Shown piece by piece: positions 1,667 to 11,783 of a stretch of 14,656 bases of DNA; position 1 is the first letter of the stretch; each line of letters opens with the position of its first letter. The notes under the pieces were generated by a model. The model made no database searches. It saw nothing but the letters and a program-made list of their open reading frames with translations, and was not told the origin of the DNA. A program made the position numbers and the translations under genes. Source of the DNA: an uncultured Bacteroidia bacterium (GTDB taxonomy: Bacteria > Bacteroidota > Bacteroidia > Bacteroidales > UBA932); NCBI GenBank assembly GCA_902796455.1, contig CADBPH010000235.1:1-14656 (forward strand). The letters run 5' to 3'.

Positions 1667-1829
1667 AGAAGCTGTTTTGAAAGGATTGCCGAAATGTATC
1701 AGGCGGAGTTTTCGAGACAGTTTCGGCTTTGGAAGAAGGAGCGCAGCCGTCCCTACGTGACTGGTGACAAAGGGGAAATGGCCGGAAGGCCGCGAAAGAA
1801 ACAAGAACGATTATTTTAAAACAGCTTCT
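1667..1829. mobile_element. MITE-like 163-bp element with 16-bp terminal inverted repeats
   Basis: The left end AGAAGCTGTTTTGAAA (1667-1682) is the inverse complement of the right end TTTTAAAACAGCTTCT (1814-1829), with one G/A difference that would be a G-T wobble in a stem. The interior has further inverted structure: GCCGAAA (1688-1694) with TTTCGGC (1721-1727), and GGCCGGAAGGCC near 1783-1794. No transposase is encoded. No clear target-site duplication flanks it (ATTGTC on the left, TATAAT on the right). The rest of the 260-base gap (1618-1877) is AT-rich and should hold the promoters of the two flanking genes, but no confident -7 element is visible for either; TATTTTTA at 1849-1856 is the nearest for the plus strand. 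It could instead be a structured regulatory or intergenic repeat. Confidence 0.5.
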
Positions 1830-1877
1830 TATAATAACGGATTTTGTCTATTTTTACGGGGAAACAGAGGATTCATC

Positions 1878-2969
1878 ATGCGTACAGTTTTTTCAAAAGT
1901 GCTATTCAGCGTATTCGTATTGTCTTTATTCCTCCAGGGATGCACTTCCGGGAAGGAGGATTCCGGGGTCAGGGTGACCGGCGTGAGCCTGTCGAGCGTG
2001 GAATTGAAGCTGCTGGAAGGGGTTCAGAAGCAGTTGACGGTGATCATTGCTCCCCGGGAGGCCACGGACAAAACGGTGAGTTGGGCTTCCAGTAATGAAG
2101 GGGTGGCCTCGGTGTCGGACGTCGGCGTGGTCACAGCAGTGAAAGAAGGGGTCGCAACCATTACGGTAACAGCGAAGGATGGGGGAAAGACGGCGGCGTG
2201 CAAGGTAACGGTCGTGAGCGCCGCGTCCGCAGGCATTCCGGATTATTCCAAGGCTCCGGGATCGGTCCGCCTGATGACCTATAATGTCGGCGTTTTCGGG
2301 AAATACATGAAAAACAGCATCTCCCTGGTGGCGGACCTATTGAAGGAAGCACAGCCTGACATCGTGGGGCTCAATGAGTTGGACAGCTGTAACACCCGGC
2401 ACAATATCTATCAGTTGAAAGAACTCAACACCTGTCTCGGGAAGGGCTGGAACTATGTTTTCCAGTCCATGTACGAATACAAGAACGGCGGCTACGGAAT
2501 CGGTATCGAAACACCCCGCAAAGTGCTGGATTCCCGCAGTTATGATATCCCGAAGACGCCCGGAGTCAGGCACATGGGGGTGCTGGCCGTCGAGCTGGAG
2601 GATTTCGTGTTCATGTCGACCCACCTGAACACTTCCGGGGCGGTATCCCTGGAGCAGGCGAAGCGGATCAATGAATATGTCCGGCGGGATTATTGGACTT
2701 CCAAGAAACCCGTTTTCCTGGCCGGAGACATGAACTCCAGGCTGGGTAGTGCGACGATGGAGGAATTAAGCCGCTACTGGACCGTCATCAGTGTCAATGC
2801 ACCGACGTTCTCGGCCAAGGAGCCGAAGAACTGCATCGATTTTGTCTTGATTTTGAACAATTTCGCAAACTATACCGTTGTCAAGTCCTCGGTTTGTACC
2901 GGTTTCCGGAGCGGAGATGTGAAAATGGCCTCCGACCACCTCCCTATTTTCGTGGACGTGGCCTTCTAG
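1878..2969 (+). CDS. Lipoprotein with Big_2 domain and EEP-family phosphohydrolase domain
   Basis: The 363-residue protein has a lipoprotein signal (LSLFLQGC, lipidated Cys22), a bacterial Ig-like Big_2 domain (about 33-112, with the typical SWASSN and GVATITV segments) and a C-terminal endonuclease/exonuclease/phosphatase domain (about 130-363). The metal and catalytic residues of the EEP fold all appear: Asn136 in TYNV, Glu167 in LNELD, His249 in STHLN, Asp284 and Asn286 in GDMN, Asp321 in IDFV, and Asp353-His354 in SDHLP. It should therefore be an active Mg-dependent phosphodiesterase or nuclease at the cell surface or in the periplasm. The substrate (nucleic acid, phospholipid or sugar phosphate) is not readable. 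The ATG at 1878 is chosen because it begins the signal peptide; the frame is open 38 codons further upstream, but that stretch lies partly in the MITE-like element and looks non-coding. Confidence 0.85.
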   Translation: MRTVFSKVLFSVFVLSLFLQGCTSGKEDSGVRVTGVSLSSVELKLLEGVQKQLTVIIAPREATDKTVSWASSNEGVASVSDVGVVTAVKEGVATITVTAKDGGKTAACKVTVVSAASAGIPDYSKAPGSVRLMTYNVGVFGKYMKNSISLVADLLKEAQPDIVGLNELDSCNTRHNIYQLKELNTCLGKGWNYVFQSMYEYKNGGYGIGIETPRKVLDSRSYDIPKTPGVRHMGVLAVELEDFVFMSTHLNTSGAVSLEQAKRINEYVRRDYWTSKKPVFLAGDMNSRLGSATMEELSRYWTVISVNAPTFSAKEPKNCIDFVLILNNFANYTVVKSSVCTGFRSGDVKMASDHLPIFVDVAF

Positions 2970-2987: not shown

Positions 2988-4595
2988 CTATTTCTTGAAG
3001 TTGAAGGTCAGGTCGACGGGGATGTGCTCGAGATGGAGGTTCATCTGGTCCGCCTTGAACGCAGGGGAAAGGGTTGAATACTCTTTCTCGAACGCGCTGG
3101 CGTATTCGTAATCTCCGGTTGCCTGAACTTTCAGGATGAGGCCGGCGAAGTCGCGGATGGCCTGGGTCGCCTTGTCGAAGTTGATGCTGTACTTGCCGTT
3201 CTCGTTCCTGTGGAAGGCGCCGTTCTTGCTCAAGTAATTATACATCATGATGTTGGCGCGTCCCAGCGGGGATCCCTCGCCGAAGCGCTCGCTGCGGAGC
3301 AGGTTGGCGATGAAAGTCGTGATGGCGTCTTCGCGGGTAAGCAGGGCCGAAATGGCGTGCTTGTCAATCAGTTCGCAAGCGAGATACAGGCCGACGATAT
3401 TGGCCTTTGCACGCTCCCAGACAGCTGCTTCATTTCCGAGAGCCGCTTCTACGGTACCCTTTCCGTTGACGGTTTCCTTCACGCCGAGCCCATGCGCAAC
3501 CTCCCGGCAGGCAATGTTCCAGAAGAACGCATCGGCATCCAGGTGCGGCAGGTAATCGGACTCCAGGAGCACGACACCGGTCGGATGGACGATCCGGTTG
3601 AATTTCTCTTCCATGATGTTCCGCAGCAGGATGGTGCGGGTCCCTTTTTCTTCCTGTACCTTCGGGTCCGTCGGCAGGTTGATGGCAATCACCTTGACTC
3701 CGGCGTTGACCTGGCCGGCATAATACAGGGCTTTGTAAGCGAAGATGTCGGATTCGACGCCCGGCCTGAACGTCTTGTAGGCATCGTCGCAAGGAAGATC
3801 TTTCTGCAATTCAGGCAGATAGGCGACATACTTCTGCAGCATGTCCGTCATCTCAAGGTCTTTGAGCAGGACGAAGGCGGAGTAGGCTTTCTTGATTCCG
3901 AACAGCTGGTCGTCAGAGCCTTCGTTCGGGCCGATGACCAGGTCCATCTTGCTGTCCACCATATCCAGCCAGGCCAGTTCGCTCTCGTAATAGTTGTCTG
4001 TGCGGAGCGCATCGATTTTCTTGAGCAGGTAGTTGCGCACGGAGGGCTTGATGGTGATGTCCGCCGCGGCCTGGAGGTAATTGCAGATCTTTTCGATCCG
4101 GTCCTTGTATTCGTCGTGGAACCACACCGTCTTGAGCTTTCCGTCTTCGGTGCGGCGGATCAGCGTATACGGGCTGTTCTTGAGCGTGTCGCCGAAGGCT
4201 TCGAACTCTTCCCGGGTCATGTCGGCCGGGTAGAAACCCGCACCGGCGGGCCGGGGACCGTATCCGTCAATGAACGGTTGGCCCGTCAGCCGGTCCCAGG
4301 GGCCATAGTTGATCATGGCATATTCTTTCAGGGAGGGATCCGTGATCGCATTCATGGCATCCCGGTCGCCGGGATACTGGTCCCAATAAATATTATCGAT
4401 CTCGTCCGCGGCGAAGCGGTAGAGATTGAGCACCTCTTTTCCGTTATCCGTAATCCCGGTCAGGTCCGGGGGCGTGATGGTGACGACATCATACTGGCCC
4501 ACTTCCCGGCTGGCCTGCCCCTTGGGGGTCTGATTGCAGGAAACCAGGATGGCGGAAAGGGCCATTGCTACGATAAAAAACCGTTTCATGATCAT
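2988..4595 (-). CDS. Dipeptidyl peptidase III (M49)-family lipoprotein with degenerate zinc site
   Basis: The 535-residue protein has a lipoprotein signal ending LSAILVSC (Cys20), so it is probably membrane-anchored in the periplasm or on the surface. The body resembles the M49 zinc exopeptidase family as found in Bacteroidota: an N-terminal helical half, then the catalytic half with FFWNIACREVAHGLG (residues 358-372) and WERAKANIVGL (393-403). Active members carry HExxH or HExxGH plus a downstream EExxA(D/E) motif. Here the first zinc His is Arg364 (CGG at 3504-3506). The zinc Glu is Arg395 (CGT at 3411-3413) and the following acidic residue is Asn399. Glu365 and His368 remain. The frame is intact to the usual length, so this is likely a maintained pseudopeptidase or binding protein, not decay. 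It converges on the EEP gene with only 18 bases between and no terminator hairpin there. Met3 is an equally possible start. Confidence 0.82.
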   Translation of the reverse strand: MIMKRFFIVAMALSAILVSCNQTPKGQASREVGQYDVVTITPPDLTGITDNGKEVLNLYRFAADEIDNIYWDQYPGDRDAMNAITDPSLKEYAMINYGPWDRLTGQPFIDGYGPRPAGAGFYPADMTREEFEAFGDTLKNSPYTLIRRTEDGKLKTVWFHDEYKDRIEKICNYLQAAADITIKPSVRNYLLKKIDALRTDNYYESELAWLDMVDSKMDLVIGPNEGSDDQLFGIKKAYSAFVLLKDLEMTDMLQKYVAYLPELQKDLPCDDAYKTFRPGVESDIFAYKALYYAGQVNAGVKVIAINLPTDPKVQEEKGTRTILLRNIMEEKFNRIVHPTGVVLLESDYLPHLDADAFFWNIACREVAHGLGVKETVNGKGTVEAALGNEAAVWERAKANIVGLYLACELIDKHAISALLTREDAITTFIANLLRSERFGEGSPLGRANIMMYNYLSKNGAFHRNENGKYSINFDKATQAIRDFAGLILKVQATGDYEYASAFEKEYSTLSPAFKADQMNLHLEHIPVDLTFNFKK

Positions 4596-4614
4596 CTCGA
4601 TTAGATTTGAAGCG

Positions 4615-4645
4615 CAAAGTTATACATTTCTCTCCTTTTTGGCAA
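4615..4645 (-). promoter_or_regulatory. Promoter of the M49-like gene
   Basis: On the minus strand, a -33 TTG (4645-4643) and a -7 TAACTTTG (4622-4615) are separated by 20 bases, matching the Bacteroidota promoter pattern. Transcription should start near 4608, giving a leader of about a dozen bases before the ATG at 4595. Confidence 0.65.
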
Positions 4646-4689
4646 GGAAAACCGCATCTTGCTAATCAATACTTTTCCGGCGTCCGGGG

Positions 4690-4719
4690 TTGAAATTATA
4701 CAAAATATGTGTACCTTTG
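4690..4719 (+). promoter_or_regulatory. Promoter of the transporter-porin-permease operon
   Basis: A -33 TTG (4690-4692) and a -7 TACCTTTG (4712-4719) are separated by 19 bases, a good Bacteroidota promoter. The expected start near 4726 leaves a leader of about 50 bases before the ATG at 4779. It is divergent from the M49-like gene promoter, about 70 bases away. No operator palindrome was recognised between them. Confidence 0.7.
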
Positions 4720-4778
4720 CATCCTTGAATTTGACTGCATACGCGTGAAAACTGAAAAAATGTCAAAATAGTTTTGTA

Positions 4779-6227
4779 ATGGCTAGCAAGAATTTCAATG
4801 TGAAGTTTTGTGTGCTTCTGCCGATCGTCCTCCTGATTACGATCGTACTCTGGGCCCTTCCTGTCAGCGCTTTCGGAATCGATGCCCTGACTGTTACGCA
4901 GCAGCGTGTGATTGCTCTCTTTGCGTTTGCCGCGTTGATGTGGATCTTTGAAATCATCCCGAACTGGGCGACGTCCGTCCTCGTGATTGTCCTGTCGCTG
5001 CTGACGGTTTCCAATAAAGGTCTGGGATTCCTCTGCAATCCCGAATATGGCCAGCTCGTCAATTACAAAGACCTCATGGCCGCGTTTGCGGACCCGGTCG
5101 TCATGCTCTTCCTCGGCGGTTTCGTCCTGGCGATCATGGCCGAGCAATACGGGTTGGATGTGACGATGGCCCGCGCCCTGCTGTCGCTGTTCGGCACGAA
5201 GCCGAAGATGGTCCTGCTGGGCTTCCTGACAGTCATCGCGATTTTCTCGATGTTCATGAGCAATACGGCGACGGCCGCCATGATGCTGGCCTTCCTGGTT
5301 CCGGTGCTTTCGAAACTGCCGGCCGGGGACAAGGGTAAGATCGGACTGGCCCTGTCGATTCCTGTCGCGGCGAACCTGGGCGGTATCGGCACGCCGATCG
5401 GCACCCCGCCGAATGCCACGGCAGTCAAGTTCCTCACTGAAGCCGGATATGATGTCTCCTTCATGCAGTGGAGCATACGGATGATTCCCTATGTCATCAT
5501 CATGATCCTGCTCGCCTGGGTCGTCCTGCAATTCCTTTTCCCGTTCAAATCGGAAAAGATTGTCCTGGAGATTCCCGAGAACAAGCGCAAGAAAGACTGG
5601 AAGACAACGGTTGTCTGGGTTACCTTCATCGGCACGATCCTCCTGTGGGCGACCGAAAGCATCACCAAGATCAATTCCAATGTGGTCGCGTTGATTCCGC
5701 TGGCTGTCTTCACCTGCACGGGCTTGTTCGGCAAGAATGAAATCAAGGAAATCAACTGGACGGTCCTGTGGCTGGTTGCCGGTGGTTTCGCCCTGGGCAC
5801 CTGCCTGCAGGGTACCGGTCTGGCCAAAGTCCTGATCCAGGCCATCCCGTTCGGAACGATGCCCGTCGTGGTGGTCCTGATCGTCGCCGGCCTGGTCTGC
5901 TACTTCCTGTCCAACTTCATCAGCAACTCGGCGACAGCGGCCCTGCTCATCCCGATCCTGATTGTCGTTGCAGAAGGCATGGCCGATCCGGCTGCCGGCA
6001 ACAATGCCCAGTTCGTGGCCGTCGGCGGTACCTACGCGATGATTACGTTCATTGCCGTGTGTGCTTCCATCGCCATGCTCTTCCCGATTTCCACGCCTCC
6101 GAATGCCATCGCGGCGTCCACCGGCATGGTGGAGACCAAGGATATGGCCAAGGTCGGCCTGGTCGTGGGCGTGATCGGCTTCATCCTGGGTTACTTCTGG
6201 CTGACGAAGATTTTCCCGTTCGCATAA
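4779..6227 (+). CDS. DASS/SLC13-family sodium:dicarboxylate symporter
   Basis: This 482-residue inner-membrane transporter belongs to the divalent anion:Na+ symporter family. It has about eleven membrane segments and an internal two-fold repeat. The first substrate and sodium motif is SNTATAAMM (161-169), followed by GGIGTPIGTPPN (201-212). The second is SNSATAALLIP (382-392), followed by FPISTPPNA (435-443). These correspond to the two SNT motifs of VcINDY; the second reads SNS here, a conservative change at the third position. Likely substrates are C4-dicarboxylates such as succinate, fumarate or malate, but citrate or sulfate relatives exist. First gene of a probable operon: its stop is 55 bases before the porin gene, with a hairpin in that gap. 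Full length, no damage seen. Confidence 0.9.
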   Translation: MASKNFNVKFCVLLPIVLLITIVLWALPVSAFGIDALTVTQQRVIALFAFAALMWIFEIIPNWATSVLVIVLSLLTVSNKGLGFLCNPEYGQLVNYKDLMAAFADPVVMLFLGGFVLAIMAEQYGLDVTMARALLSLFGTKPKMVLLGFLTVIAIFSMFMSNTATAAMMLAFLVPVLSKLPAGDKGKIGLALSIPVAANLGGIGTPIGTPPNATAVKFLTEAGYDVSFMQWSIRMIPYVIIMILLAWVVLQFLFPFKSEKIVLEIPENKRKKDWKTTVVWVTFIGTILLWATESITKINSNVVALIPLAVFTCTGLFGKNEIKEINWTVLWLVAGGFALGTCLQGTGLAKVLIQAIPFGTMPVVVVLIVAGLVCYFLSNFISNSATAALLIPILIVVAEGMADPAAGNNAQFVAVGGTYAMITFIAVCASIAMLFPISTPPNAIAASTGMVETKDMAKVGLVVGVIGFILGYFWLTKIFPFA

Positions 6228-6282: not shown

Positions 6283-7524
6283 ATGAAACGTATTTCTATC
6301 CTTATCGCTGCGGCAGCGCTGTTTGCCGGCACCGCCGTGACAGCCCAGGAGACGACCTCCCCGAAATTCAAACCGTATGGTTTTATCCGCAATTACGCTT
6401 TCGTGGATACCCGGGCGACCAAGTCCCTGGCTGAGGACATTTTCTTCTTTATCCCGTTGGATGAAAAAATCGTGAACGGACAGGATGTCAATGCCGTTCC
6501 GAGCTTCAACTTCCAGGCGATCAGTACCCGTCTCGGGCTCGATATCTCTGGCTATCAGGTGGGTAACACCAAGATCGGCGGCAAGATCGAAGCCGACTTT
6601 TATTGCTTGAATTCCAGCGGAAATACCGGTACGCTCCGGATGCGTCAGGCCTATGTCGACCTGATCTGGGAGGGCAGCAGCCTGCGGATCGGCCAGGCAT
6701 GGCACCCGCTTGCCGCCGACCTGGTCCATGGCATCAATCTCGAGACCGGCGCCCCGTTCACTCCGTTCAACCGTTCGGCGCAGATCATGTACAACCTTAC
6801 CTTCTCGAAGAATGCCGCGTTGCAGACAGGCTTCATCCAGCAGCTGCAATACCGTTCGGCCGGCCCTGACGGGTCTTCGAACAAATACCAGCGCCATGCT
6901 TTCCCGGAGTTCTATGTTGGCATGAATTTCAATGCCGGTCCCTTCCTGTGGCGGGTCGGCGCCGACGTGCTCGGTATCCGTCCCCGTTACGGATACAACG
7001 CCGAAGGCCGCAAGTATGACGAACTGCTGACCACGCTCAACCTGTTCACTTTCTTCCAGTATACCAAGGGAATGGTGCAGGTAAAGGCCAAGTCTGTCCT
7101 GGCACAGGCCGGCGAGCACATGCAGTTGAACGGCGGTTATGCCGTAACTGGCCTCAAGTCCGACGGTTTCTCCCGCGAGTATGCTCCGATCAATTCCAGC
7201 GTTTCCTTTGTCTCCGTGTCTGTCGGCAAGAAGATCCAGGGCCTGGGCATGATCGGTTACCAGAAGAATCTCGGCATGTCGCGTGCGTATGACCACAATG
7301 TCGGCGGCGTTTATTTCAGCGGAAACGGATATTCCAACATCAACCAGATGGTCCGTTTCACCCCGACGGTCATGTACAATCTCGGCAAGATGCAGTTCGC
7401 CCTGGAGTATGACATGACCATGGTTCAGTACGCCAAGGAGCTGAATGAGTATCTTCTGCCTACGGGCGGGCTTCACTGGGTGACGAACAACCGCCTGCTG
7501 CTGATGGCGAAACTCAACTTCTAG
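6283..7524 (+). CDS. Outer-membrane porin-like beta-barrel protein
   Basis: The 413-residue protein has a signal peptide (KRISILIAAAALFAGTAVTA, cleavage near residue 21). A body of alternating polar and hydrophobic stretches follows, with many aromatic girdle residues (for example FYVGMNF, FTFFQYTKG, FVSVSVGKK). It ends in Phe (LLMAKLNF), as is usual for outer-membrane barrels inserted by BAM. Segments such as KIGGKIEADFYCLNS and RMRQAYVDLIW followed by LRIGQAWHPL resemble trimeric porins of the DcaP type, so passive diffusion of small anions is a reasonable inference. It sits 55 bases after the dicarboxylate symporter and 5 bases before the purine permease, so it is probably co-transcribed and supplies the outer-membrane step for one or both inner-membrane permeases. 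It is not a SusC-type receptor: there is no plug and the length is far too short. Confidence 0.8.
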   Translation: MKRISILIAAAALFAGTAVTAQETTSPKFKPYGFIRNYAFVDTRATKSLAEDIFFFIPLDEKIVNGQDVNAVPSFNFQAISTRLGLDISGYQVGNTKIGGKIEADFYCLNSSGNTGTLRMRQAYVDLIWEGSSLRIGQAWHPLAADLVHGINLETGAPFTPFNRSAQIMYNLTFSKNAALQTGFIQQLQYRSAGPDGSSNKYQRHAFPEFYVGMNFNAGPFLWRVGADVLGIRPRYGYNAEGRKYDELLTTLNLFTFFQYTKGMVQVKAKSVLAQAGEHMQLNGGYAVTGLKSDGFSREYAPINSSVSFVSVSVGKKIQGLGMIGYQKNLGMSRAYDHNVGGVYFSGNGYSNINQMVRFTPTVMYNLGKMQFALEYDMTMVQYAKELNEYLLPTGGLHWVTNNRLLLMAKLNF

Positions 7525-9092: not shown

Positions 9093-11282
9093 ATGGACGT
9101 TAGAAAGACAAATGGCTCCTACGAGGAGTATGATCGGCTGAAGTTGATGCGGGGGATCCGCGAGGCATATAAGACGGCCGGCCAGAAGTGCCCGGAGGAA
9201 GTGGTTGTATCGGTTACCGACAACCTGTACATCTACGATAAAATCGCCAGTCAGGAAATCCGCCGCCAGGTGGTGGAATCCCTGATGTCCATCAACAAGA
9301 AGGTTGCGCTTGCCTACATCGAGAAATTCGATGCCGGCATGGATCTCCGCAAGAAGCGGGACTTTATCCGGGACTACATCAAGGCGTCCAATGCCGCGAC
9401 CGGGTCCAAGTTCGATGCCAATGCCAATGTCACGCGCAAGAACATCGTGACCCTCGGGCAGGAGCTTTACAAGGAAAACAATATCAAGCAGAACCGGTAC
9501 ATCATGCATGACAAGATCAAGGCGATGTATTCGCGTTCGCTGGCGGACCAGTATCTCCAGGACCTGGAATCCCACGTCTTGTACAAGCATGACGAGAGCG
9601 GGACGCCGGGGTATCCCTATTGCGTCGCAATCACCATGTATCCCTTCCTGGTCAGCGGTTTGCGGGAACTGGGCGGGGTCTCGATCGCGCCGACCGACCT
9701 GAAATCCTTCTGCGGTGAATTCATCAATCTGGTCTATTCGGTATCCTCGCAGTTCATGGGGGCGGTGGCGACACCGGAATTCCTGATGTACCTGGACTAT
9801 TTCATCCGCAAGGATTATGGGGACGATTACCTGGACCGGCTGGACGAGGTCGTCGAGAACAATATCAAGCAGCGCACGCTTGTCAAGGTGATCGACAATT
9901 ATTTCCAGCAGGTCGTCCACTCCATGAACATGCCGGCCGGCAACCGCGGGTACCAGACCGTTTTCTGGAATATCGGGTACTTTGACAAGCCGTATTTCGA
10001 GGGCGTGTTCGGCGATTTCCGGTTCCCGGACGGGTCGGCCCCGAAATGGGAAACGCTGTCCTGGCTCCAGAAACATTTCATGAACTGGTTCAATGAGGAG
10101 CGCAACCATTATATCCTGACCTTCCCGGTGGAAACCATGGCGCTGCTGACAGACGGGGGCGACGATTTCGCGGATAAGGAATATGCGGATTTCACGGCGG
10201 AAATGTGGGCCAAGGGGCACAGTTTCTTCTGCTATCTGTCCGACAGCCCGGACAGCCTGTCCAGTTGCTGCCGGTTGCGCAATTCGCTCAAGGATGTGGA
10301 AGATACGGACGTGGAGCACAACCATACCACGCACCAGTATTCCATGGGAACCGCCTCTGTATCAACGGGGTCCAAGTCCGTCATGACGATCAACCTGAAC
10401 CGGGTGATCCAGTTGGCGGCGCGACGCTGGTTCAAGGAAAAGAAGGGAATCGAGCTGGAAGAAGGGAAACCCCTGGATCCTTCCATGACCTATGACCGGG
10501 AGGAGTTGTATGCGTATGTCTGCAACGATGTGCGCGAGATGACCGAGCGGGTCCACAAGTACCAGACGGCTTTCAACGAGATCATCAAAGACTTCCTCAA
10601 GGCGGACATGCTGGATGTGTACAAGGCCGGATTCATCGACATGCGGCGCCAGTATCTGACGGTCGGGGTCAACGGCATGACGGATGCGGCCGAATTCCTC
10701 GGGCTGACGATTTCGCCCAATGAGGAATACCGCCATTTCGTGAACAGCCTGCTGGAAACCATCAATGTCGCCAACCGGAAGGACCGGACCCGCGAGTGCA
10801 TGTTCAATACCGAGTTCGTCCCGGGCGAGAACCTCTCCGGAAAGAATTACAAGTGGGACAAGAAGGACGGTTTCTTCGTGTCGCCGAAGCACAATATGTA
10901 CAGCTCGTATTTCTACAATCCTGAGGATGAGAGCCTTTCGATGATCGATAAGTTCATCCTCCACGGGACGGAATATGTGAAATACCTGGACGGCGGTTCC
11001 GCGCTGCACATGAATATCTCCGAGCACTTGTCCAAGGCGCAGTACCGCCAGCTGCTCAAGACCGCCGCGCATTACGGGACGAATTATTTCACCTTCAACT
11101 GCCGCAATACCGTCTGCAACCAGTGCGGCTATATCAGCAAGGACACGCTGACGGTCTGCCCGAAATGCGGCAGCACCAACCTGGATTACCTGACGCGGGT
11201 CATCGGATATCTCAAGCGGATTTCCTCGTTCAGCGAAATGCGCCAGGAGGAGGCAGCGCACCGTTTCTACATCGGGGAATAA
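9093..11282 (+). CDS. nrdD: Anaerobic (class III) ribonucleoside-triphosphate reductase
   Basis: The 729-residue enzyme reduces NTPs to dNTPs without oxygen, using a glycyl radical. An N-terminal ATP-cone regulatory domain is visible (about 1-95, starting MDVRKTNGSYEEYDR). The catalytic barrel contains SLSSCCRLRNSL (388-399, Cys392/Cys393, the region of the thiyl cysteine) and STGSKSVMTINLNR (424-437). The C-terminal zinc site is CNQC...CPKC (Cys675, 678, 689, 692). The glycyl-radical loop RVIGYL follows, with Gly705 expected to carry the radical. All expected elements are present and length is normal. The activase gene nrdG follows after six bases. In an anaerobe this is likely a main source of deoxynucleotides, and the purine permease upstream fits nucleotide supply, though terminators separate the two units. 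Confidence 0.96.
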   Translation: MDVRKTNGSYEEYDRLKLMRGIREAYKTAGQKCPEEVVVSVTDNLYIYDKIASQEIRRQVVESLMSINKKVALAYIEKFDAGMDLRKKRDFIRDYIKASNAATGSKFDANANVTRKNIVTLGQELYKENNIKQNRYIMHDKIKAMYSRSLADQYLQDLESHVLYKHDESGTPGYPYCVAITMYPFLVSGLRELGGVSIAPTDLKSFCGEFINLVYSVSSQFMGAVATPEFLMYLDYFIRKDYGDDYLDRLDEVVENNIKQRTLVKVIDNYFQQVVHSMNMPAGNRGYQTVFWNIGYFDKPYFEGVFGDFRFPDGSAPKWETLSWLQKHFMNWFNEERNHYILTFPVETMALLTDGGDDFADKEYADFTAEMWAKGHSFFCYLSDSPDSLSSCCRLRNSLKDVEDTDVEHNHTTHQYSMGTASVSTGSKSVMTINLNRVIQLAARRWFKEKKGIELEEGKPLDPSMTYDREELYAYVCNDVREMTERVHKYQTAFNEIIKDFLKADMLDVYKAGFIDMRRQYLTVGVNGMTDAAEFLGLTISPNEEYRHFVNSLLETINVANRKDRTRECMFNTEFVPGENLSGKNYKWDKKDGFFVSPKHNMYSSYFYNPEDESLSMIDKFILHGTEYVKYLDGGSALHMNISEHLSKAQYRQLLKTAAHYGTNYFTFNCRNTVCNQCGYISKDTLTVCPKCGSTNLDYLTRVIGYLKRISSFSEMRQEEAAHRFYIGE

Positions 11283-11288
11283 CCGGGC

Positions 11289-11783
11289 ATGATCAAGTAT
11301 GTTCCGCAGATGACCTCGGTGGTCATGGAAGAAATACCCGACAAAGTTACCCTGGCAGTGGACATCAGCCGTTGCCAGGGTACTTGCGAAGGGTGCCATT
11401 CTCCTTTCCTCCGCCAGGATATCGGCGAGGAGCTGACTCCCGCTGTCATCGACACGCTCCTCGGGCGGAATTTCGGGGTGGATTGTTTCCTGTTCCTCGG
11501 GGAAGGGGACGACCCGGCGCGGCTGCTGGAACTGGCCGCCTATGTCCGGAAGCGGCACGCGGTCTCCGTCGCCCTGTATTCGGGCCGGCCGGCGGTGGAG
11601 GACTCTTTTTTCCAGGTATTCGATTATGTGAAAGTCGGGCCGTATATTCCGGCCTTCGGCCCGCTCAATGTCCCGACCACCAACCAGCGGCTGTACAAAG
11701 TGGTCCGTCACGGGGGTGAAAGCGTTGAGCTGGAAGATATTACGTCCCGTATGCAGCACCGCGGAACCGATTCGTCCCGGTAG
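11289..11783 (+). CDS. nrdG: Anaerobic ribonucleotide reductase activating protein (radical SAM)
   Basis: The 164-residue radical-SAM activase uses S-adenosylmethionine and a 4Fe-4S cluster to form the glycyl radical on NrdD. The cluster motif is CQGTCEGC (Cys29, Cys33, Cys36; CX3CX2C, followed by HSPFL), as is typical of NrdG. Preceding it is VTLAVDISRC, the first strand of the reduced barrel. The segment FLFLGEGDDP (about 68-77) takes the place of the glycine-rich SAM-binding strand. KVGPYIPAFGPLN resembles the conserved C-terminal part. It starts six bases after the nrdD stop and is certainly co-transcribed. After the stop there is only a weak 5-bp hairpin (AAGGG/CCCTT at 11786-11799), so termination here is unclear. 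Confidence 0.95.
   Translation: MIKYVPQMTSVVMEEIPDKVTLAVDISRCQGTCEGCHSPFLRQDIGEELTPAVIDTLLGRNFGVDCFLFLGEGDDPARLLELAAYVRKRHAVSVALYSGRPAVEDSFFQVFDYVKVGPYIPAFGPLNVPTTNQRLYKVVRHGGESVELEDITSRMQHRGTDSSR

Follow-up and report, generated by a model that had tools for sequence, protein, structure and literature searches.

A conserved clade of M49 lipoproteins with a replaced zinc site lies beside secondary transporter genes in uncultured Bacteroidales

In a stretch of 14,656 nucleotides of DNA from an uncultured Bacteroidia bacterium of the order Bacteroidales (contig CADBPH010000235.1 of assembly GCA_902796455.1; the whole stretch is referred to here as the window), the minus strand carries at positions 2988-4595 a gene of 535 codons plus a stop codon that encodes a protein of peptidase family M49, the family of dipeptidyl peptidase III (DPP III). 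A Pfam search gave a match to PF03571 of 31.3 bits (curated cut-off, 21), which places the protein in family M49 by descent, and the predicted structure model, with a mean predicted local distance difference test score (pLDDT) of 90.7, superposes on solved DPP III structures across approximately 500 residues and has the fold of that family. The reading frame and the fold of the gene are intact. An initial annotation made from the sequence alone had described the 535-residue frame, the signal and the overall fold as intact, and the open frame, the lipobox, the PF03571 score and the pLDDT agree with that description. The gene and the residues discussed below are as follows.

2988..4595, minus strand: M49-fold lipoprotein of 535 amino acids (P0001), a predicted pseudopeptidase of the R type defined below (frame, Pfam, alignment, model)
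4536..4595, minus strand: signal sequence and lipobox, residues 1-20 (LVS-C20; simple lipobox pattern)
3921..3923, minus strand: E225, corresponding to human Glu316, which binds the NH2-terminus of the substrate (coordinates from codon number)
3915..3917, minus strand: S227, at the site of the transition-state Tyr (Tyr318 of the human enzyme; alignment)
3678..3680, minus strand: N306, corresponding to human Asn391, which also binds the NH2-terminus (coordinates from codon number)
3504..3506, minus strand: R364 (CGG), at the site of the first histidine ligand of zinc (alignment, codon read)
3501..3503, minus strand: E365, the former catalytic glutamate or base (alignment)
3492..3494, minus strand: H368, the sole zinc ligand remaining in the protein (alignment)
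3411..3413, minus strand: R395 (CGT), at the site of the glutamate ligand of zinc (alignment, codon read)
3399..3401, minus strand: N399 (AAT), in place of the second-motif Asp (alignment, codon read)
3264..3266, minus strand: L444, at the site of the transition-state His (His568 of the human enzyme; alignment)

The two zinc motifs, which together span exactly positions 3399-3506, read R364-EVAH and E-R395-AKA-N399 instead of HExxH and EExxAD. The zinc ligands of DPP III from C. abyssi are His379, His383 and Glu412 (PMC5805324, available text), and in the alignment with this enzyme (6eom) R364 corresponds to His379, H368 to His383, R395 to Glu412 and N399 to Asp416. The codons and the alignment thus bear out the initial annotation, according to which two of the three zinc ligands and the Asp of the second motif are replaced, and the protein has neither of the motifs (HExxH or HExxGH, and EExxA(D/E)) that define a DPP III enzyme. 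That annotation had also named a position of the true zinc motifs elsewhere in the protein as a possible objection; alignment to 6eom and to the Corallococcus structure 5zum rules this out. Catalytic residues outside the motifs are replaced as well. Tyr318 and His568 of the human enzyme form hydrogen bonds with the substrate, and His568 stabilises the oxyanion, according to the available text of a quantum mechanics/molecular mechanics study (PMC8836397). S227 stands at the position of Tyr318, which was located two residues past Glu240 of 6eom (human Glu316). L444 stands at that of His568, an assignment verified by counting residues along the alignment of the same genome's full-length DPP III with 3fvy. 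The window protein differs from the pentapeptide-motif DPP III enzymes of C. abyssi and Corallococcus in lacking both a complete zinc site and the two transition-state residues, the comparison having been made residue by residue with 6eom only. Given that the CGG codon of R364 is at least two bases away from either His codon and that the CGT codon of R395 is three away from a Glu codon, a single base error cannot account for either substitution.

For the protein search, 8000 candidates were scored, of which 7212 had E values up to 0.001, and the best 120, picked by similarity alone, were listed. Arg was present at position 364 in all 119 listed homologues other than the window's own entry, one of which has Gln at 368. 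Position 395 was Glu in 90 of the 119, Asp in 24, Lys in four and Thr in one, and position 399 was Asn in 105. Among 121 aligned rows, R395 occurred solely in P0001 and its own entry, P0002. The Arg/Arg/Asn triplet that the initial annotation had put forward as a possible clade signature does not hold as such: R364 is universal, N399 is common but not universal, and R395 is private to the window gene. The source name "Zn-dependent hydrolase" is attached to three of the 120 listed homologues and would be wrong for the clade described below.

The tree comprises 130 of the 134 M49 genes collected from 123 of 125 loci, without the fragments L142 and L164 and the repeats L160 (= L036) and L213 (= L085). 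A distant DPP III row (L097_3343) was in addition excluded from the residue counts and from the masked tree. Some loci were picked by motif pattern (39 R-type loci, L135-L173; L174; and 40 H-type loci), so that R364 or His, E365 and H368 were conditioned there. An M49 gene was present at 40 of the 40 R-type and 38 of the 40 H-type pattern-picked loci, L192 and L193 being chance matches, and the loci picked by similarity alone gave R- and K-type rows with R364 plus seven H-type rows. The 85 genes of the R type (70) and the K type (15) formed a single clade against 44 relatives with HExxH (H type; 40 from the genus of the window's genome and four from other families), with a Shimodaira-Hasegawa-like approximate likelihood ratio test support of 100. 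With 15 active-site positions masked and the distant row removed, R/K versus H was still one change, with a support of 99. The K type is a sub-clade of 15 rows (support, 100) with the motifs REIAK or REVAK and EK(A/T)KSN, in which all three ligands are Arg or Lys; H368 is replaced by Lys in all 15, and a search with one K-type gene listed 120 homologues, every one of them with R364, K368 and K395. The early-branching R-type rows mostly have EE..D, and Asn at 399 is commoner in the remaining R-type rows.

Residue counts across these rows showed that the equivalents of both Tyr318 and His568 are present in 44 of 44 H-type genes and in none of the 85 R/K-type genes. The Asn394 equivalent is likewise present in 44 of 44 H-type genes versus one of 85 R/K-type genes, being Phe or Tyr in 77, and the Asp310 equivalent is mostly Lys in the R type and Tyr in the K type. 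N399 was found in 50 of 70 R-type and in all 15 K-type genes, and the zinc glutamate is retained in 60 of 70 R-type genes. E365, E394 and N306 are unchanged in 85 of 85 R/K-type genes, and E225 is kept in 78 of 85. Judged from the alignments, these whole-clade changes are remodelling at fixed positions, not scattered decay.

The ratios of nonsynonymous to synonymous substitution rates (dN/dS) were compared for the eight pairs of smallest dS in each type. Five R pairs gave values of 0.02-0.12 and three gave 0.63-0.77 with dN of 0.37-0.42, these three being distant proteins with improbably low dS; seven K pairs gave 0.05-0.14 and one 0.30, and seven H pairs gave 0.03-0.07 and one 0.19. By these ratios the closest R pairs are under purifying selection. 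The nearest relatives of the window gene in the tree are L063 and L064, with dN of 0.27 and dS of 1.37 against L063, although its position within the R/K clade is uncertain. Its long end branch (0.47) would be in keeping with a decaying gene or an assembly error, but the open frame, signal and fold are intact, R364 is shared by all listed close homologues, and the codon differences involve several bases, so that we regard this explanation as extremely improbable; for R364, the frame, the shared residue, the dN/dS values and the codon differences rule out both decay and sequencing error. Genes with HEVAH and EEAKAD, which the initial annotation had named as evidence against itself if they occurred in close relatives, do exist in the genus. 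They occupy a different locus, however, and as distinct genes that fall outside the R/K clade they provide no evidence of a strain-specific mutation.

The R motif was found by exact pattern in 105 of 300 genomes of the genus, including one (G143) with Ser at the first codon; the matches were partly checked, and all 40 fetched, including the order-level match, are M49 genes. The HExxH motif was found by exact pattern in 56 of the 300, two of these matches (G112, G211) being antisense chance matches. The R and HEVAH motifs truly occurred together in none of the 300 genomes by pattern, where approximately 20 cases would be expected if they were independent; the only genome on both lists is G112, with its antisense match. 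This non-overlap suggests replacement or lineage sorting. It also bears on the idea that the R-type protein is a decoy or regulator of an active DPP III in the same cell. The window's own genome does encode a full-length DPP III relative (HECLGH, EEARAD, EAHMQ), but the nearest active relative, the HEVAH type, was not truly found with the R type in any of these 300 genomes by pattern, and the genomic linkage of the R type is to transporters, and we consider such a role quite improbable. Among 295 genomes of the order, 293 of them outside the genus, there was a single R match outside the genus (an M49 gene of G627, 58% identical), and among 295 genomes of the phylum other than the window's there was one pattern match, which is not an M49 gene. 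The G627 gene (L174, G627:C25), from another family, is nested inside the R clade, which suggests transfer. Four of the relatives come from uncultured Bacteroidales or Bacteroidia assemblies, one of them from sheep rumen according to its title; the genus shared with the window's genome is probably Cryptobacteroides.

The window protein has a lipobox by simple pattern, and C20 is conserved in at least 90% of 77 aligned rows. By the same pattern a lipobox is present in 62 of 70 R-type, 12 of 15 K-type and 42 of 44 H-type proteins. The HEVAH-type lipoproteins of the genus resemble the window protein, to which six of them are 47-57% identical, but differ in that the full catalytic set is present in all 44 H-type rows. 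A pair of acidic residues at positions +2 to +6 is the rule for the surface-export signal. Among the lipobox proteins, two acidic residues in this interval were found in only four of 62 R-type and one of 12 K-type proteins (10 of 42 H-type), and given this rarity a periplasmic location is taken as a working assumption.

The M49 gene of the window is transcribed divergently from a transporter gene, with the following features alongside.

4779..6227, plus strand: gene for a sodium-coupled anion symporter of the DASS family, transcribed away from the M49 gene (TIGR00785, 233 bits versus 198.6)
6283..7524, plus strand: gene for a DcaP-like outer-membrane porin, after the DASS gene (PF19577, 29.7 bits; cut-off, 27)
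4615..4622, minus strand: TANNTTTG box (TAACTTTG; motif scan), which we take to be a possible -7 element of the M49 gene
4712..4719, plus strand: TANNTTTG box (TACCTTTG; motif scan), likewise a possible -7 element of the DASS gene

A gene for a DASS or AspT/YidE-type transporter was found no more than 3.5 kb away from 58 of the 70 distinct R-type genes and from all 15 K-type genes (73 of 85, the window gene included, as would be expected of a solute-binding lipoprotein), versus none of 44 H-type genes. With fragments and repeats included, the counts were 59 of 72, 16 of 16 (75 of 88) and 0 of 45, with a Fisher p value of 4.7e-24 that treats related genes as independent, and 71 of these 75 linked genes share a strand with the nearest transporter gene. 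Most H-type genes lie instead near a gene for triosephosphate isomerase (38 of 45) and one for an M6-type peptidase (36 of 45). The DASS gene of the window is the only PF03600 match in the 2.29-Mb draft genome (78% complete), which has two AspT-type genes on other contigs, and twenty other genomes of the genus have one to seven PF03600 matches each; with so few such genes per genome, chance proximity should be rare. At five loci (L034, L065, L077, L081, L083) a single DASS gene has an R-type copy on one side and a K-type copy on the other, an arrangement suggestive of two partners for one transporter. L174, the one R-type copy met in another family, follows an AspT gene, with a LysR gene adjoining, and the module may have moved as one unit. 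Less frequent recurrent neighbours are genes for a DcaP-like porin, glutamate dehydrogenase, 2-oxoacid:ferredoxin oxidoreductase and a LysR regulator. DcaP3 of Acinetobacter is required for growth on di- and tricarboxylic acids (PMC12338516, available text).

The same linkage would be expected if the protein, without binding any small ligand itself, served the transporter or some other complex of the envelope as a structural or regulatory subunit, and the alteration of several substrate-binding residues (the Asn394 and Asp310 equivalents) is in line with such a role. The conservation of E365, N306 and E394 throughout the clade, and of E225 in most of it, suggests however that a ligand in the cleft is still selected for, and we therefore give the subunit explanation a minor share of the probability, preferring a ligand-binding function.

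Elsewhere in the window, the divergent intergenic region (4596-4778) contains four TANNTTTG boxes (4602, 4615, 4712, 4769), and the whole window contains 10, versus 3.9 expected; no full TTTG-spacer-TANNTTTG promoter was found within the window, and no Rfam element at gathering score. The other genes encode a 6-fold beta-flower protein (PF21786; 1138-1617, minus strand), a protein with a Big_2 domain followed by an endonuclease/exonuclease/phosphatase domain (1764-2969, plus strand), an anaerobic ribonucleotide reductase (NRDD; 9093-11282, plus strand) and an open reading frame without a Pfam match (11289-11783, plus strand), which is in what we take to be the usual position of the activase.

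Several known systems resemble the R/K clade in part. The DUF6421 protein PolE, an iron- and pterin-dependent oxidase, is a non-peptidase use of an M49-like fold but has a metal motif, HE/DxxHxnE (PMC12614342, available text), whereas the R/K clade is lipid-anchored and has lost ligands; the window protein has R364 at the first His of that motif. By analogy, the R/K proteins might have acquired a new enzymatic activity in this cleft, whether metal-dependent or not. Given that PolE retains its motif, whereas the R type is without the first His and the K type without all three ligands, we think this unlikely. Metallopeptidase pseudoenzymes (PMC11266112, available text) are comparable in combining a full-length fold with lost catalytic residues; the terms "M49", "DPP3" and "dipeptidyl peptidase" were absent from the main text of that review in a term search. 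Extracytoplasmic solute-binding lipoproteins are a known class. They resemble the role proposed here in being two-lobed, anchored in the envelope and encoded beside a transporter, but the window protein has no binding-protein Pfam match and its clade is linked to DASS and AspT-type transporters. PF03571 was the only Pfam family matched, and a new class of binding protein would not match known profiles.

The loss of peptidase chemistry in the R/K clade is strongly supported by these replacements. At the level of sequence, the comparisons show that a DPP III relative lost its first zinc His to Arg once, lost both transition-state residues and became tied to transporter loci, and that the resulting clade is almost confined to one genus. 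The proposal of the initial annotation that the gene is a repurposed pseudopeptidase and not a decaying one is well supported by the single clade, the purifying selection in the closest pairs, the retained lipoprotein signal and the recurrent neighbourhood; findings that go beyond it are the missing equivalents of Tyr318 and His568, the sub-clade in which every zinc ligand is replaced and the transporter linkage. We favour, with some reserve, the view that the protein is a zinc-free pseudopeptidase which has been recruited to assist the uptake of organic acids or acidic amino acids, as a periplasmic lipoprotein with a ligand-binding or accessory function. It would be a lipid-anchored, probably periplasmic M49-fold protein derived from a pentapeptide-motif DPP III relative, in which the guanidinium group of R364 probably occupies the former zinc site, salt-bridged to E365 (and to E395 where this is kept), and would provide a fixed positive charge in place of Zn2+; further ligands would have changed to Lys or Arg in later branches. 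The two-lobed cleft, with its retained Glu and Asn for binding of an amino-terminus, may capture a small ligand and pass it on to the DASS or AspT-type transporter encoded alongside; the likeliest candidates are an acidic amino acid, a dicarboxylate or a short peptide. In loci such as the window, the DcaP-like porin would be the outer-membrane entry. We infer both the identity of the ligand and its hand-over to the transporter; putative peptide binding, the example given in the initial annotation, is possible. A broader proposal, which we put forward tentatively and with less than even confidence, is that the M49 fold gave rise to a new class of proteins that are anchored by lipid and capture substrates for DASS and AspT-type secondary active transporters, and in which fixed cationic side chains took over stepwise from the catalytic Zn2+ (R first, followed by R+R or R+K+K) and bind the transported ligand through its carboxylate.

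Several observations weigh against this interpretation. The M49 gene and the DASS gene of the window are divergent and do not form one operon. Twelve of the 70 distinct R-type genes (13 of 72 in the gross count), a few of them on short contigs, lack a DASS or AspT gene in the 3.5-kb neighbourhood, and the nearest relatives of the window gene, L063 and L064, are among these 12; linkage may have been lost there, or the role may be different. DASS and AspT are different families, so that a single common substrate is a guess, and basal R-type rows mostly have EE..D together with H368, which makes residual metal binding possible in them. Finally, the median dN/dS was 0.33 for 343 R pairs with dS of 0.1-1.2, versus 0.065 for 22 H pairs, and 0.115 for 40 K pairs. 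This difference may reflect weaker constraint on the R type, although the R median is inflated by distant pairs with improbably low dS, because of which the all-pair median was set aside in our interpretation.

Zinc-less M49 proteins were not mentioned in the titles or abstract beginnings among the matches listed from the open-licence PMC literature. Pseudoenzymes in general are nothing new; the apparent novelty lies in a conserved M49 clade that is free of zinc and associated with secondary transporters. The genes form a stepwise series, almost all of it in one genus, from a complete zinc site (HExxH, EE..D) through the R type to the K type without ligands, which allows the loss of catalysis and the gain of a new role to be traced experimentally. 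To our knowledge, the DASS and AspT-type transporter families are usually described as working alone; if the link to the transporters is functional, it would add a capture or accessory protein to these families.
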